Shown: in pieces, positions 6,131-39,212 of the stretch
How positions within the stretch are numbered: the first letter of the stretch is position 1
Layout of the letters: the number at the start of each line of letters is the position of its first letter
Assembly: GCA_020847545.1 (NCBI GenBank)
Contig: JADLBV010000128.1
Coordinates: 1 to 50,681, forward strand
DNA from: Phycisphaerales bacterium
Lineage (GTDB): Bacteria > Planctomycetota > Phycisphaerae > Tepidisphaerales > Tepidisphaeraceae
Length of the DNA: 50,681 nt
Reading direction: 5' to 3'
The notes under the pieces: model-generated
The model's database searches: none
The model's input: only the letters and a program-made list of their open reading frames with translations
Told to the model about the DNA's origin: nothing
Made by a program: the position numbers and the translations under genes

Positions 6131-6967
6131 ATGGAGCATCAAATGATGAAGCTGGCCGCATTTGCGGATGAGATTTCCCCGAACCTGGATGAGCAGATCA
6201 AGGTTTGCCTGGCCAATGGGGTGGAGGCGTTTGAGCTTCGGGGGGTGAACAATCTCAACGTGCTGGATTTTGACCCGGCGCTGCGGCGGGAAATCAGGAC
6301 AAAGTTGGCGGCCAATGGGTTGGGGGTGGCGAGCATTGGCAGTCCGATCGGGAAGGTGAAGATCAACGAGCCGTTTGGACCGCATTTTGATCGGTTTAAG
6401 ATCGCGGTTGAGCTGGCGGAATTTTTTGAAGCGCCGTTTATCCGGATATTCAGTTATTACCCGGCCGACCAGAATGATGACATCCTCAAGCATCGCGACG
6501 AGGTGTTGGACCGCATGAGGGCCAAGGTGGATTACATCGGCGATCTGCCCGTGGTGCTGGTGCATGAGAATGAGGCGGCCATTTATGGCGAAAAGGTGGC
6601 GCAATGCGTGGACATGATGAAAAGCATTGATTCGCCGAGGCTGCGCAGCGCGTTTGATTTTGCGAATTTCGTGGTGGCGGGCGAGGATCCGCTGGCAAAC
6701 TGGCCGAAACTCAAGCCGTATACGGTGCATATTCACATCAAGGATGCGCGCATGTCGGACAAGAAAGTCGTGCCGGCGGGCCAGGGGGATGGGCAGATCG
6801 AGCCGATTCTGGCGGATCTGAATCGGAGCGGATATCGGGGATATTTGACCATGGAACCGCATCTGGCGCACGCGGGGCAATTCAGCGGCCACACCGGGCC
6901 GGAACTGTTCAAGACGGCGGTTGATGCGTTGCGTACCGTGGCAAAAAGGGTTGGGGTTCAGGTTTGA
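6131..6967 (+). CDS. Sugar phosphate isomerase/epimerase-like TIM-barrel protein
   Basis: A 278-residue cytosolic protein of the xylose-isomerase-like / AP-endonuclease-2 fold. The metal site typical of the family can be followed: VLVHENE, then SAFDFAN, then VHIHIKDA, and finally LTMEPHL, supplying the Glu, Asp, His and Glu ligands. Such proteins interconvert ketose and aldose sugars or their derivatives. The ATG at 6131 lies 8 nt after GAGGGG; an in-frame ATG at 6143 preceded by GGAG is an alternative that would remove four residues. It is divergent from the amidohydrolase gene, and its ribosome site lies in a potential hairpin. Confidence 0.82.
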   Translation: MEHQMMKLAAFADEISPNLDEQIKVCLANGVEAFELRGVNNLNVLDFDPALRREIRTKLAANGLGVASIGSPIGKVKINEPFGPHFDRFKIAVELAEFFEAPFIRIFSYYPADQNDDILKHRDEVLDRMRAKVDYIGDLPVVLVHENEAAIYGEKVAQCVDMMKSIDSPRLRSAFDFANFVVAGEDPLANWPKLKPYTVHIHIKDARMSDKKVVPAGQGDGQIEPILADLNRSGYRGYLTMEPHLAHAGQFSGHTGPELFKTAVDALRTVAKRVGVQV

Positions 6968-6986
6968 TGCTCTGATATTTCGATAA

Positions 6987-7256
6987 GGCTCTGCCTGAAA
7001 ACTCCGATGGCCCACGATGGACCGCAAACAGGCCGGTGGCTAGGCGTCGGCGACGAAGCAGTATTTGGTATACTACGGCGAGGAGCCGCAACGACGCCAA
7101 CGGCCTGTTTGCGGTCCACCGAAGGCGGCATGAAATCGGCTTGTCCACTTCGTTGGAACCGCTCAATGGCTCATCAAGAGCCTGTTTTCGCGATTCCGCC
7201 TCGCGGCCAAGCCGATTTGATGCCGTCGTGGACCATCGGAGTTTTCAGACAGAGCC
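6987..7256. mobile_element. 270-bp MITE-like element with 34-bp terminal inverted repeats and two internal hairpins
   Basis: Bases 6987-7020 (GGCTCTGCCTGAAAACTC...) match the reverse complement of 7223-7256 at 31 of 34 positions. The element is bracketed by TAA at 6984-6986 and TAA at 7257-7259, a likely 3-bp target duplication. Inside, GGACCGCAAACAGGCC at 7019-7034 pairs perfectly with 7102-7117, closing a long hairpin whose tip is AGTAT-ttggt-ATACT. A second hairpin pairs 7127-7143 with 7208-7224 (one mismatch) with tip GGCTC-atcaa-GAGCC. No transposase fits inside. A TNA duplication is known for the IS1031 group of the IS5 family, so a non-autonomous derivative mobilised in trans is the best reading. 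It fills the whole gap between the isomerase and RnfC-like genes. Confidence 0.75.
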
Positions 7257-7280
7257 TAATTTTGAGATTCGAGATCGGGC

Positions 7281-15839: not shown

Positions 15840-16517
15840 TTATGGACTGTTGTCACCCCGATCATCAGGCCGGGTCATTGGTGGCGGCGGTGGCGACGGC
15901 GGTGCCATTCCATATGCTCCGCCACCGTAGAAACTCCGTGGGTCCGGTTGAGGCCAATAGGGATGGGAATATTGAGTGGACGCCCGCACAAGCCGGACAT
16001 TTTTCACGGCCTGAACCAGCATCACCATCAGCACGATCAGCAACACCAGCGGCACAACCATCATGCACAATCCCGCCAATGCCCCCTGCTGGCCGCTCGC
16101 GGCCTGCAGCATCCCCAACAGGACGTAGAACGCCTCCACCAGGATCATCAGCCCCACCAGGACCATGGATGTGACGATCGATCCCATCCCACCCCGCCTG
16201 ACGAACAACCCCAGGATCAACATCAGCAACGCGGGGAGCGCCAACACCACACCCATCGCGATGAAGACCTTCTGAACCGGAACGCCTGATTCCGATTCCA
16301 GCTTCTGTATCGCCTGCACCTGTTCGGGTGGCAGTTGATCCAGCGGATAGACCCATCCAAATCCGAAGATGCACGCCCCGCCCAACAGCATCAATATCCC
16401 CAGCACAACCATCATCAACCCCGCCCGCCGGGCCGGCGCCTGCGGATCGGTGCCGTACGCGGAATATCCATACGACGGCGGATAAGGATACGAACTCGGA
16501 TCGGGATATTGGCTCAA
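15840..16517 (-). CDS. Unknown membrane protein with Tyr/Pro-rich N terminus
   Basis: A 225-residue protein. The first 30 residues are rich in Tyr, Pro and Ser, as in many DUF4870/DUF4190-like proteins. Four hydrophobic segments follow, near residues 33-53, 84-104, 113-135 and 145-168, and the C terminus is Pro-rich (SPPPPPM). No catalytic motif is visible. It lies between rsmE and a small unknown gene on the same strand, with 37 nt and 17 nt gaps. Confidence 0.6.
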   Translation of the reverse strand: MSQYPDPSSYPYPPSYGYSAYGTDPQAPARRAGLMMVVLGILMLLGGACIFGFGWVYPLDQLPPEQVQAIQKLESESGVPVQKVFIAMGVVLALPALLMLILGLFVRRGGMGSIVTSMVLVGLMILVEAFYVLLGMLQAASGQQGALAGLCMMVVPLVLLIVLMVMLVQAVKNVRLVRASTQYSHPYWPQPDPRSFYGGGAYGMAPPSPPPPPMTRPDDRGDNSP

Positions 16518-16554
16518 TTCAAGGCCCCAAAAACGTGTTTTTCAATCGACTTGT

Positions 16555-17277
16555 TCAGTGGCCCGACGTACCCCGGCACGCCACCACCGACGCGGCCGCC
16601 AACGCGGCGGTCTCCGTTCGCAAAATCGTCTCTGTCAGCTTTACCCCCGTCAAGCCGTGTGCGGCAAATAATGCGATTTCTTCCTCCGTCCATCCCCCTT
16701 CGGGGCCGATCAGCAGCAGCAATTCACGCCCCAAATCCAGCCGTGCAATCGCATTTGCAATCGGCAGTGCATTCAGCTCGGTGGACAAATACCAGACCTG
16801 CCGATCACCCTGTTGATCCAATATTTGAGCAATCGTCTTCAACGGCTCGATGACCATCACCCCCCGCCGACGCGATTGCTTGGCGGCCTCAACCGCCAGC
16901 CGCTGCCAACGCTGCATCTTGTTTTGCCCCTCCGGCACCACCACGCTCCGGCCGGCCGCCAGTGGAACATAGGACGATGCGCCCAGTTCGCTGAGTTTTT
17001 CGATCATCCAGTCGGCACGATTCGCCTTGGGGACCGCCGATGCGATGGTCCAACGCCATTGCGGCTGTGCGGCGATCCTCGGCATATCCACCTCGACCAT
17101 CACCCGCCGACCTTCGCTTGGGATCAACACACCCCGCGCCACCGCCCCGGCGTCGTCGAACAACTCCACCTCCGCCCCAACATCCAGCCGCAACACATCG
17201 CGCAGATAATGCGACTGCTCATCCGACAACTCCACACGGCCGACTTCGAGGGTGGGTAAATGAATTCGTCGTTTCAC
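16555..17277 (-). CDS. rsmE: 16S rRNA (uracil-1498-N3)-methyltransferase
   Basis: A 240-residue SPOUT-class methyltransferase that modifies U1498 of 16S rRNA using SAM. The N-terminal PUA-like domain begins with RRIHLP and SHYLRDVLRLDVG. The SPOUT part contains ERSVV-like KLSELGAS, EAAKQSRRR, LLLLIGPEGGWTEEE (the SAM knot, GPEGG near residue 193) and the C-terminal LTETILRTETAALAA. Length and motif order are normal. It heads a minus-strand run of genes and is divergent from an acidic tail-anchored protein gene. Confidence 0.95.
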   Translation of the reverse strand: MKRRIHLPTLEVGRVELSDEQSHYLRDVLRLDVGAEVELFDDAGAVARGVLIPSEGRRVMVEVDMPRIAAQPQWRWTIASAVPKANRADWMIEKLSELGASSYVPLAAGRSVVVPEGQNKMQRWQRLAVEAAKQSRRRGVMVIEPLKTIAQILDQQGDRQVWYLSTELNALPIANAIARLDLGRELLLLIGPEGGWTEEEIALFAAHGLTGVKLTETILRTETAALAAASVVACRGTSGH

Positions 17278-37292: not shown

Positions 37293-39212
37293 TTACACCA
37301 TCCGGTGTCGCCCGTGCGACGAGCGAGATCTCAACACATTCAGAATCAGTCCGACAGCAAGCAGACCTGTAGTAGTTGGCTCTGGAACGACCGTTAATAC
37401 GATGCTGTCACCGATCAATTGGGTATTGAATGACAGGCCGGACAGATTGCCATACATCTGGAACGTGGCGGTGCCGAGCCCGGTGATATTTCCATCGGCC
37501 GTCAGGAATGCAAAACTGTCCCCGGGCGCAGGCGTATAATTGAACAGATACTTGATCAATACACCGTCTATTTCAACATCGCCGGTGACAAGAAGGAGAT
37601 CGTGCATACCGGGCGAATCCAGTTCGATCTCGAGTGTCGAGCCGAGCATGTGCAGCGAGCCGTCGATGGTCATCGTCCCGGGCGAGTTGCCGGGGGCGAG
37701 TGTGGCGTCATAGTCTGTGTCAAGAAACGCTTCGATTTTACCGGCACCCTTGATAATGCCGCTCGAGATTTGAACCACGCTCTGTTTCAGTTGGCCGTTG
37801 ATGGTAGTAGTAGCATCCATGTCGTCCTGCACATAGGTGCCATCGCCATTGATGGATGCACCTGCTTCGATGACAAGCTCGCCGGTATTGCTGATCTGGC
37901 CGGCATTCTCGACAGTCCCGGAATTTAGAATCGTGCCGGTGTTCCCCAGAACCGCGCCGGTCTCGTTGACGAGCATCCCGCCATTTTGAAGCAGGCCAGA
38001 GTTGTCTAAGAAATTCTTGTTGGTTATGTCTCCGTTGTTCTGCACACTGTTGGTGTTCTGGAACACACCTTTGATCTCGACCCAAGCACCGAGCACGTTC
38101 TCGAATGTGCCTTTATTGAAAAGCTTATCGGTCAACTTCATAATCCCAAATCCACCGTTAATCACCTGCCCGGTTCCTTCGTTTGTGAATATGCCGTCGC
38201 TATCAAGAAGACCGGTGTTGGTCAGTTTTCCATTGTTCAACAACTCACCGTGGTTGGTCATCGTTGATTGGTTCTCAATCTTGCCCTGACCGCCGTTCAC
38301 CAACGAAGCGGCGATCTCCGAGACCCAATGGCCTGTGTTGTTTATTGTGCCATTGTTCAAAGTCGTGCCGCCGTTGGTAAGCAAGCCGACGGTCTCCAAC
38401 GTGCCGAACGATCGAATCGTGCCGAAGTTATCCAGCGTCCCTGAATTGTTGAAATGAGCCGACACATCGTTGAACATGTTCTGGAGATTCTGAATCTCGC
38501 CATCGGAATCGAAATTGCCATAGTTGATCAGCGAGCCATCATTGGTAATCAGGCCGGAGTTGGAGAGGCTGCCATTAAGGCCCGATAGGGTGCGTGTCTC
38601 GGTGTTGTCGTTATAAATCGAATCGCCAGATGGAATATTGATCGGTGTGAGGGCGACGGTCACCACACCGACTTTGACGTTGGTGAAGGAATAGACTGCA
38701 TCGTTGAAATCTAAGTCGCCACCACCAAACATATCCTCAAATCCAACGATGACCGGTCCGGCAGGCTCGTCGGTGTCCCAAGTGAACACGGCATGCGGCA
38801 GATGATCGGGGTTCAGCGGAAGTTCACCGGTCCCTGTGAACCATCCAAAATTAAAGCTCGCCGGCCCCCCATTCTGGCTGGGCAGGTATGATTGATCGCG
38901 AATAAACAACACGGTTTCAGGCAAAAACGTACCCATCGATGCCGTTGCGTTCACTGCTGAACTCGTGCTGATGAAAATAGGCCCCTGAAACGTCGGCGAA
39001 TCGAGATACAGCTCGTTGGTGAACAATGAATTCGCCCCGATAAACTTCGCCTGAACTGCAGTACCCCCCTCAACCACGCGCAGCGTTCCCCCAATGACAG
39101 ATACCATTCCGGCCTGTGCGTAAACTGCAGTGCAAACCACCGCCGCAAAAGCCCCTGAAACCTGTAAAGCCATCCTCGAAGAAATGAGGTATCCTCGAAC
39201 TATATTTCGCAT
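37293..39212 (-). CDS. Large PEP-CTERM protein with DUF4114 domain and Asn/Gly repeat region
   Basis: A 639-residue exported protein. A signal-like helix lies at residues 12-35. FTWDTDEPAGPVIVGFEDM and GGGDLDFNDAVYSF around 135-175 mark a DUF4114 domain, a probable calcium-binding beta fold. From about 205 to 460 the sequence is built of short repeats of the type N-x-G-x-(I/L)-x-N, e.g. NNGTINNTG, LLNNGKLTNTG, IFTNEGTG, which should form a beta-solenoid. VPEPTTTGLLAVGLIL and a basic tail are the PEP-CTERM signal. GGAGGTGA lies 6 nt before the ATG. It is likely a surface or biofilm protein. Confidence 0.82.
   Translation of the reverse strand: MRNIVRGYLISSRMALQVSGAFAAVVCTAVYAQAGMVSVIGGTLRVVEGGTAVQAKFIGANSLFTNELYLDSPTFQGPIFISTSSAVNATASMGTFLPETVLFIRDQSYLPSQNGGPASFNFGWFTGTGELPLNPDHLPHAVFTWDTDEPAGPVIVGFEDMFGGGDLDFNDAVYSFTNVKVGVVTVALTPINIPSGDSIYNDNTETRTLSGLNGSLSNSGLITNDGSLINYGNFDSDGEIQNLQNMFNDVSAHFNNSGTLDNFGTIRSFGTLETVGLLTNGGTTLNNGTINNTGHWVSEIAASLVNGGQGKIENQSTMTNHGELLNNGKLTNTGLLDSDGIFTNEGTGQVINGGFGIMKLTDKLFNKGTFENVLGAWVEIKGVFQNTNSVQNNGDITNKNFLDNSGLLQNGGMLVNETGAVLGNTGTILNSGTVENAGQISNTGELVIEAGASINGDGTYVQDDMDATTTINGQLKQSVVQISSGIIKGAGKIEAFLDTDYDATLAPGNSPGTMTIDGSLHMLGSTLEIELDSPGMHDLLLVTGDVEIDGVLIKYLFNYTPAPGDSFAFLTADGNITGLGTATFQMYGNLSGLSFNTQLIGDSIVLTVVPEPTTTGLLAVGLILNVLRSRSSHGRHRMV

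Follow-up and report, generated by a model that had tools for sequence, protein, structure and literature searches.

The 270-bp element described here is probably, with a chance of about three in four, a MITE that is moved by an IS5-family transposase and carries a conserved pair of inverted hairpins as its cargo. The fold of this cargo appears to be selected on one strand, likely as RNA, and the core seems to spread by changing its ends. Direct reading of the sequence and an inverted-repeat search placed the element, which is non-coding, at positions 6987 to 7256 of the window, the whole stretch of 50,681 nucleotides that was analyzed. The features of the locus are as follows.

6131 to 6967, + strand: upstream gene for a xylose-isomerase-like TIM barrel protein (Pfam PF01261)
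6984 to 6986: left flanking TAA, by direct reading (most other copies have a TA dinucleotide duplication in the flank tally)
6987 to 7020, + strand: left terminal inverted repeat (TIR), which begins GGCTCTGCCTGAAAACTCC; the same ends are found on IS5-family insertion sequences (IS) of genomes G027 and G029
7019 to 7117, + strand: hairpin module H1, sense on the + strand (80.3-bit match to covariance model R2; folding)
7041 to 7045, + strand: 5' side of H1 internal loop A, TAGGC (consensus AAGGC)
7051 to 7056, + strand: 5' side of H1 internal loop B, CGACGA (GA conserved)
7077 to 7084, + strand: 3' side of H1 internal loop B, GGCGAGGA (GAG conserved)
7090 to 7094, + strand: 3' side of H1 internal loop A, AACGA (conserved)
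7118 to 7126: short linker between H1 and H2
7127 to 7224, - strand: hairpin module H2, sense on the - strand and inverted relative to H1 (82.6-bit R2 match on the - strand)
7223 to 7256, - strand: right TIR, by direct reading and the inverted-repeat search
7257 to 7259: right flanking TAA
7281 to 8411, + strand: downstream gene for an RnfC-like electron-transport subunit (TIGR01945, below its cut-off)

The upstream stop codon is 19 bp before the left end of the element, and the rnfC-like gene starts 24 bp after the right end. The open reading frames over the element are short mechanical frames only, and a transposase gene is absent. The original prediction of 34-bp terminal repeats matching at 31 of 34 positions proved accurate (6987 to 7020 against 7223 to 7256, with three mismatches), as did the TAA on both sides (6984 to 6986 and 7257 to 7259).

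The host genome (3.75 Mb, 162 contigs) contains six full copies that are 95 to 97% identical, as well as shorter, truncated left-end fragments. Most of the genomes studied are fragmented metagenome assemblies in which copies break contigs, and the number of candidates scored in each genome was limited, so that copy numbers are lower bounds. Because full copies and fragments occur elsewhere in the host, the element is not a chance sequence. The syntenic site is empty in "Phycisphaerales bacterium SJ572," a member of the same genus, where the flanks are 79 to 82% identical and the TIM barrel gene is 36 bp from the rnfC-like gene, versus 313 bp in the host. Therefore, the element was inserted between two closely spaced, co-directional genes, and the window copy should be part of a read-through transcript. 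The multiple host copies and the empty site in a same-genus relative identify the element as a MITE. It had been predicted to be a transposase-less mobile element, a claim to be dropped if the host held no other copy and all relatives had the same sequence at this site; the six copies and the empty SJ572 site bear the claim out. We found terminal inverted repeats, a small size without a transposase, dispersed copies, and an empty site; an autonomous partner that shares the ends is present elsewhere in the class, in other families, and was not found in the host assembly. By every feature tested, the 270-bp element is a MITE, save for the subgroup first proposed for it. According to simple, rough ORF calls, the copies are mostly between genes and occur in all orientations, with no clear preference and no link to gene orientation.

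The flanks of 24 elements or IS with type-A ends were tallied. TA/TA was found directly at the ends in 17 of the 24, mostly inside YTAR, and CTA/TAG was the commonest form. A matching triplet (TAA/TAA) was present in the window copy only. This tally did not confirm the 3-bp TNA duplication and the IS1031 subgroup that had been proposed. We take the YTAR/TA duplication pattern to be closer to the IS427 subgroup of IS5. A Tc1/IS630 reading of the TA duplication was ruled out, because the host has no DDE_3 transposases of the IS630 type.

In G029 and G027, two copies of the terminal sequence GGCTCTGTCTGAAAA face each other at distances of 917 and 923 bp, and these are two complete IS. Both encode an IS5-family transposase (NF033580 transpos_IS5_3 above cut-off; DDE_Tnp_1). 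The G027 transposase is in two frames, with a DUF4096 domain in the first. The two IS are flanked by CTA/TAG or CTA/TAA. An IS5-type transposase with the same ends, as predicted, thus exists in related genomes, although the proposed IS1031 subgroup is not supported. The suggested search for such an IS failed in the fragmented host assembly, where no IS with the element's ends was found and the NF033580 matches were weak only. The exact terminal-repeat pattern had no match in a named genome collection. The PF01609 transposases of the host belong to the IS701, IS4, and ISAs1 families; they are without the element's ends and were rejected as partners. One of the five host PF01609 matches is in a reading frame that runs on into pheS. 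Trans-mobilization by an IS5-family transposase is well supported as far as the ends are concerned, with the partner IS seen in related genomes and not in the host. An enzyme of the NCBIfam NF033580 type would act in trans on the ends and insert the element at YTAR-like sites with a TA duplication.

Neither complete IS has a hairpin module inside. In addition, palindromes of 48 to 58 bp in G008 and G001 (L088 to L092) contain nothing but the two terminal repeats and lack the hairpin core; these are either deletion products or an independent minimal element. Since complete IS carry no module and core-less copies exist, IS5 transposition does not require the module. The same or near-identical IS5-type ends also enclose quite different palindromic interiors in G052 (L093 and L094), G022 (L096 to L098), and G013 (L099 to L101), one of those in G022 being GTAGGGGCAGGCCTCCGTGCCTGCCC.

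Two other loci were observed in this context. An intact NF033580 transposase IS in G001 (L293; contig C66, transposase at 16069 to 16824), with ends AGAGCGTGTTATG, directly adjoins a module-carrying MITE, and the two share a single CTAG at the junction. One of the module copies in G033 has a similar end, GAGCGTGTATG. In the host, three near-perfect inverted copies of TGACCTTCCCCACAAATAGCGGGCGC, each 26 to 27 bp long, lie beside an ISAs1-type transposase that is split over two frames (L054; G000:C80, about 38190 to 38690), possibly representing another small host element.

The 270 bp fold almost wholly into a three-way junction that is formed by the terminal stem, H1, and H2. The inverted-repeat tool placed the hairpin arms at 7010 to 7040/7096 to 7126 and at 7126 to 7146/7205 to 7225, in agreement with the predicted two long internal hairpins that leave little unpaired. 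Folding the 270 nt as RNA, as had been suggested, gave -164.5 kcal/mol (z = -12.9), and the DNA fold had a z of -13.9; in each case, none of 200 shuffles was as good.

H1 and H2 have little sequence in common, but they share the same geometry. Each module is about 98 nt long, H1 being in sense on one strand and H2 on the other. In both, a stem of roughly 17 bp leads to a short helix, then to internal loop A, a middle helix, and loop B, which contains tandem G.A, and finally to an apical stem. Both internal loops are conserved. In 18 hairpins from four genomes, compensatory changes were found in 24 of the 30 RNAalifold pairs. In a 34-pair structure, 92.5% of the cells were paired, compared with 69.0% after shuffling and 33 to 41% in slid versions; double changes occurred in 28 of the 34 pairs, and none of 500 shuffles reached the observed pairing. 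These pair counts pool related sequences. Among 35 non-redundant hairpins that are less than 80% identical, 89% of the cells still pair, the loop bases are near-invariant, and all 35 have an isolated G-C pair within loop A. The A and G on the 5' side of loop A are near-invariant in this set and also across the phylum. The alignment columns that never change are mostly in the loops. The window element had no match in Rfam, and the relatives had only generic miRNA-hairpin matches far below the gathering scores. Membership in a known Rfam RNA family was rejected, since no covariance model matched above its gathering score.

The element could instead be an ordinary IS5 MITE with an arbitrary palindromic interior, in which pairing is kept not by selection on a folded product but by DNA-level processes such as hairpin-templated correction or template switching between the arms. 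Long palindromes are known to become homogenized, and both the unrelated palindromes behind the same ends (G022, G052, and G013) and the core-less copies of 48 to 58 bp (G008 and G001) fit this explanation. However, it leaves unexplained why unpaired loops are conserved throughout the phylum, why H1 and H2 have a common geometry, why the core is kept through switches of its ends, and why single hairpins exist without ends. We consider it distinctly unlikely, also in view of the strand asymmetry, which it does not account for.

That asymmetry concerns the mismatched pairs in the stems. A molecule that folds in the sense strand only should tolerate G-U (G.T) and not A-C, whereas the two should be alike if both strands are equal. 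In stem A of 92 hairpins that are less than 80% identical, we counted 93 G-U and 17 A-C pairs (P = 7e-14); at a 97% identity threshold, the counts were 205 and 31, and these counts, too, pool related sequences. As a control, we used the terminal-repeat helix of 57 elements, in which neither strand is privileged; it had 35 and 25 (P = 0.25), a ratio different from that of the hairpins (Fisher P = 3e-4). In nearly every case, the model scores of the sense and antisense strands are about 30 bits or more apart, so the strand assignment is independent of the G-U and A-C pairs. The excess of G-U in the hairpins, and not in the terminal-repeat helix, indicates that one defined strand is selected to fold. 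Together with the compensatory changes and the pairing relative to shuffles, it sustains the earlier suggestion of selection for structure. This pattern of substitutions favors a strand-specific folded molecule, which most simply would be RNA rather than single-stranded DNA (ssDNA). However, the asymmetry would be no different for an ssDNA hairpin that is recognized by a strand-specific enzyme.

The element could also work, in either strand, as the DNA cruciform or transcription barrier that had been suggested for it. The very stable predicted fold, as both DNA and RNA, and the location of most copies between genes agree with such a role. However, a barrier needs neither conserved loops nor a strand preference, and terminator-like sites in the window copy are not above chance. 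A cruciform should show equal numbers of G-T and A-C, which is true of the TIR helix and not of the hairpins. We therefore regard either role as very unlikely.

The strand-selected module is not confined to the host. Covariance model R1 found it in 16 of 61 relatives, and model R2 found it in 53 of the 397 genomes of the class and in 56 of 392 genomes drawn from the phylum; these searches covered Planctomycetota genomes, and the E-values of such short-calibrated models are rough. Matches outside the class score far better on one strand and retain a loop consensus of about gATGCaAGGcG ... CGA ... CGAG ... cAACGccGCag. In several families outside the class (for example, G593, G518, G440, and G552), the module is single and lacks recognizable terminal repeats. 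As some phylum matches are single hairpins without ends, the module is more general than this kind of MITE and can occur apart from it.

Some of the single hairpins have particular neighbors. In G440, four of the five copies examined lie antisense to a tRNA gene and begin 2 to 7 bp beyond its 3' end (L185 on C263, L255 on C181, L256 on C118, and L354 on C6; tRNAs Arg, Gln, Phe, and Ala). Several of those in G593 and G518 (L189, L192, and L250 to L254) have A-runs before and T-runs after them, which would resemble a terminator in either direction.

Dispersed single hairpins without TIRs in other families of the phylum would also be expected if the module were a REP/REPIN-like ssDNA hairpin, recognized by a Y1 (RAYT-type) or other ssDNA transposase and embedded in IS5 MITEs. 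The inverted hairpin pairs resemble REPINs, or head-to-head REP dimers (PMC3733652), the strand asymmetry also fits, and Y1_Tnp genes are present in 54 of the 61 relatives. However, genomes that lack the module have Y1_Tnp genes about as often, and these genes therefore do not track it. Among the host Y1_Tnp loci listed (C114, C34, and C79), none is on a module-bearing contig. REPs are 20 to 40 bp long and come with either of two tags; those with GTAG depend on RAYT, and those with CGTC on an unknown enzyme (PMC3733652). The present modules exceed twice that length and, within the class, are enclosed in TIR elements flanked by TA. A ssDNA-transposase hairpin of this kind is unlikely, and identity with REP/REPIN itself was rejected by the size of the hairpins (about 98 nt) and the missing conserved GTAG or CGTC tag in the alignment.

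In the class, the usual form of the element is 270 to 300 bp long and consists of a terminal repeat, H1, a short linker, inverted H2, and a terminal repeat. The terminal repeat varies between families and even among the copies of one genome. At least three end types occur in the host itself (GGCTCTGYCTGAAAA, AGAATCTATCTCAGAACC, and AAGAGCCTATCCGAATAA). Four different outer repeats are found in G033 among five copies whose cores are 92 to 97% identical; between end types, the outer 20 bp are mostly 50 to 70% identical, while both ends of each copy agree. G043 has the same end switching, except for one more divergent core (L275). By changing its ends from one IS5-type terminal repeat to another, the core continues to spread. 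We speculate that one-sided recombination might replace one end, followed by hairpin-templated correction of the other arm. To our knowledge, hairpin cores that switch transposon ends have not been described, and a conserved core of this kind appears to be new.

We suggest that the interior is a conserved cargo in which one structured hairpin module is present twice. Because the two modules are inverted, transcription of the element in either direction yields one module in sense. Selection acts on the folding of one particular strand of the module, most likely in the form of RNA within read-through transcripts, and the window copy lies between two co-directional, closely spaced genes. Our best guess is a transcript-borne, protein-binding structure that hitchhikes on successive IS5 transposases. 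For the role of the folded RNA, protein binding, stabilization or shaping of mRNA 3' ends, or control of read-through is a guess that is rather more probably wrong than right. Tentatively, and at just short of even odds, the hairpin may be an old functional RNA or strand-specific ssDNA module of Planctomycetota, occurring alone or as inverted pairs, that has repeatedly adopted active IS5-type ends, with the core inherited and the ends replaceable.

Several known systems resemble parts of this element. The bcr1 repeat of Bacillus cereus is likewise small, dispersed, and mobile, and a conserved folded RNA has been reported for it. However, bcr1 occurs in a single species group and is linked to a TTTAT motif, and a core common to different transposon ends is not described for it in the work cited (PMC6542083). 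IS5-family MITEs share IS-matching terminal inverted repeats, a short target duplication, multiple copies, the lack of a transposase, and an expected structured transcript (PMC10969869). Unlike in those MITEs, the interior here is not an IS leftover but a covarying inverted hairpin pair that is phylum-wide and associated with many terminal repeats. REP/REPIN elements are similar in being inverted hairpin pairs, dispersed, mostly extragenic, and able to act as RNA (PMC3733652), whereas the module here is about 98 nt long, has two internal loops, and in the class is carried within IS5-type TIRs. Rhodopirellula-1 is likewise a candidate structured RNA, reported from Planctomycetes and Proteobacteria and named in a table that gives no Rfam accession for it (PMC2864571).

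The module points to an undescribed family of structured RNA (or ssDNA) in a phylum whose RNA biology is little known. The usual view of MITEs is that they are decayed insertion sequences and that their interiors carry no meaning. In the present case, conservation lies in the interior, which is recognizable across the phylum, and it is the ends that change. This provides a countable system for how non-autonomous elements find new transposases. With covariance models, copies, and an empty site available, the questions of how transposases are found and whether the hairpins form an RNA family are directly testable.
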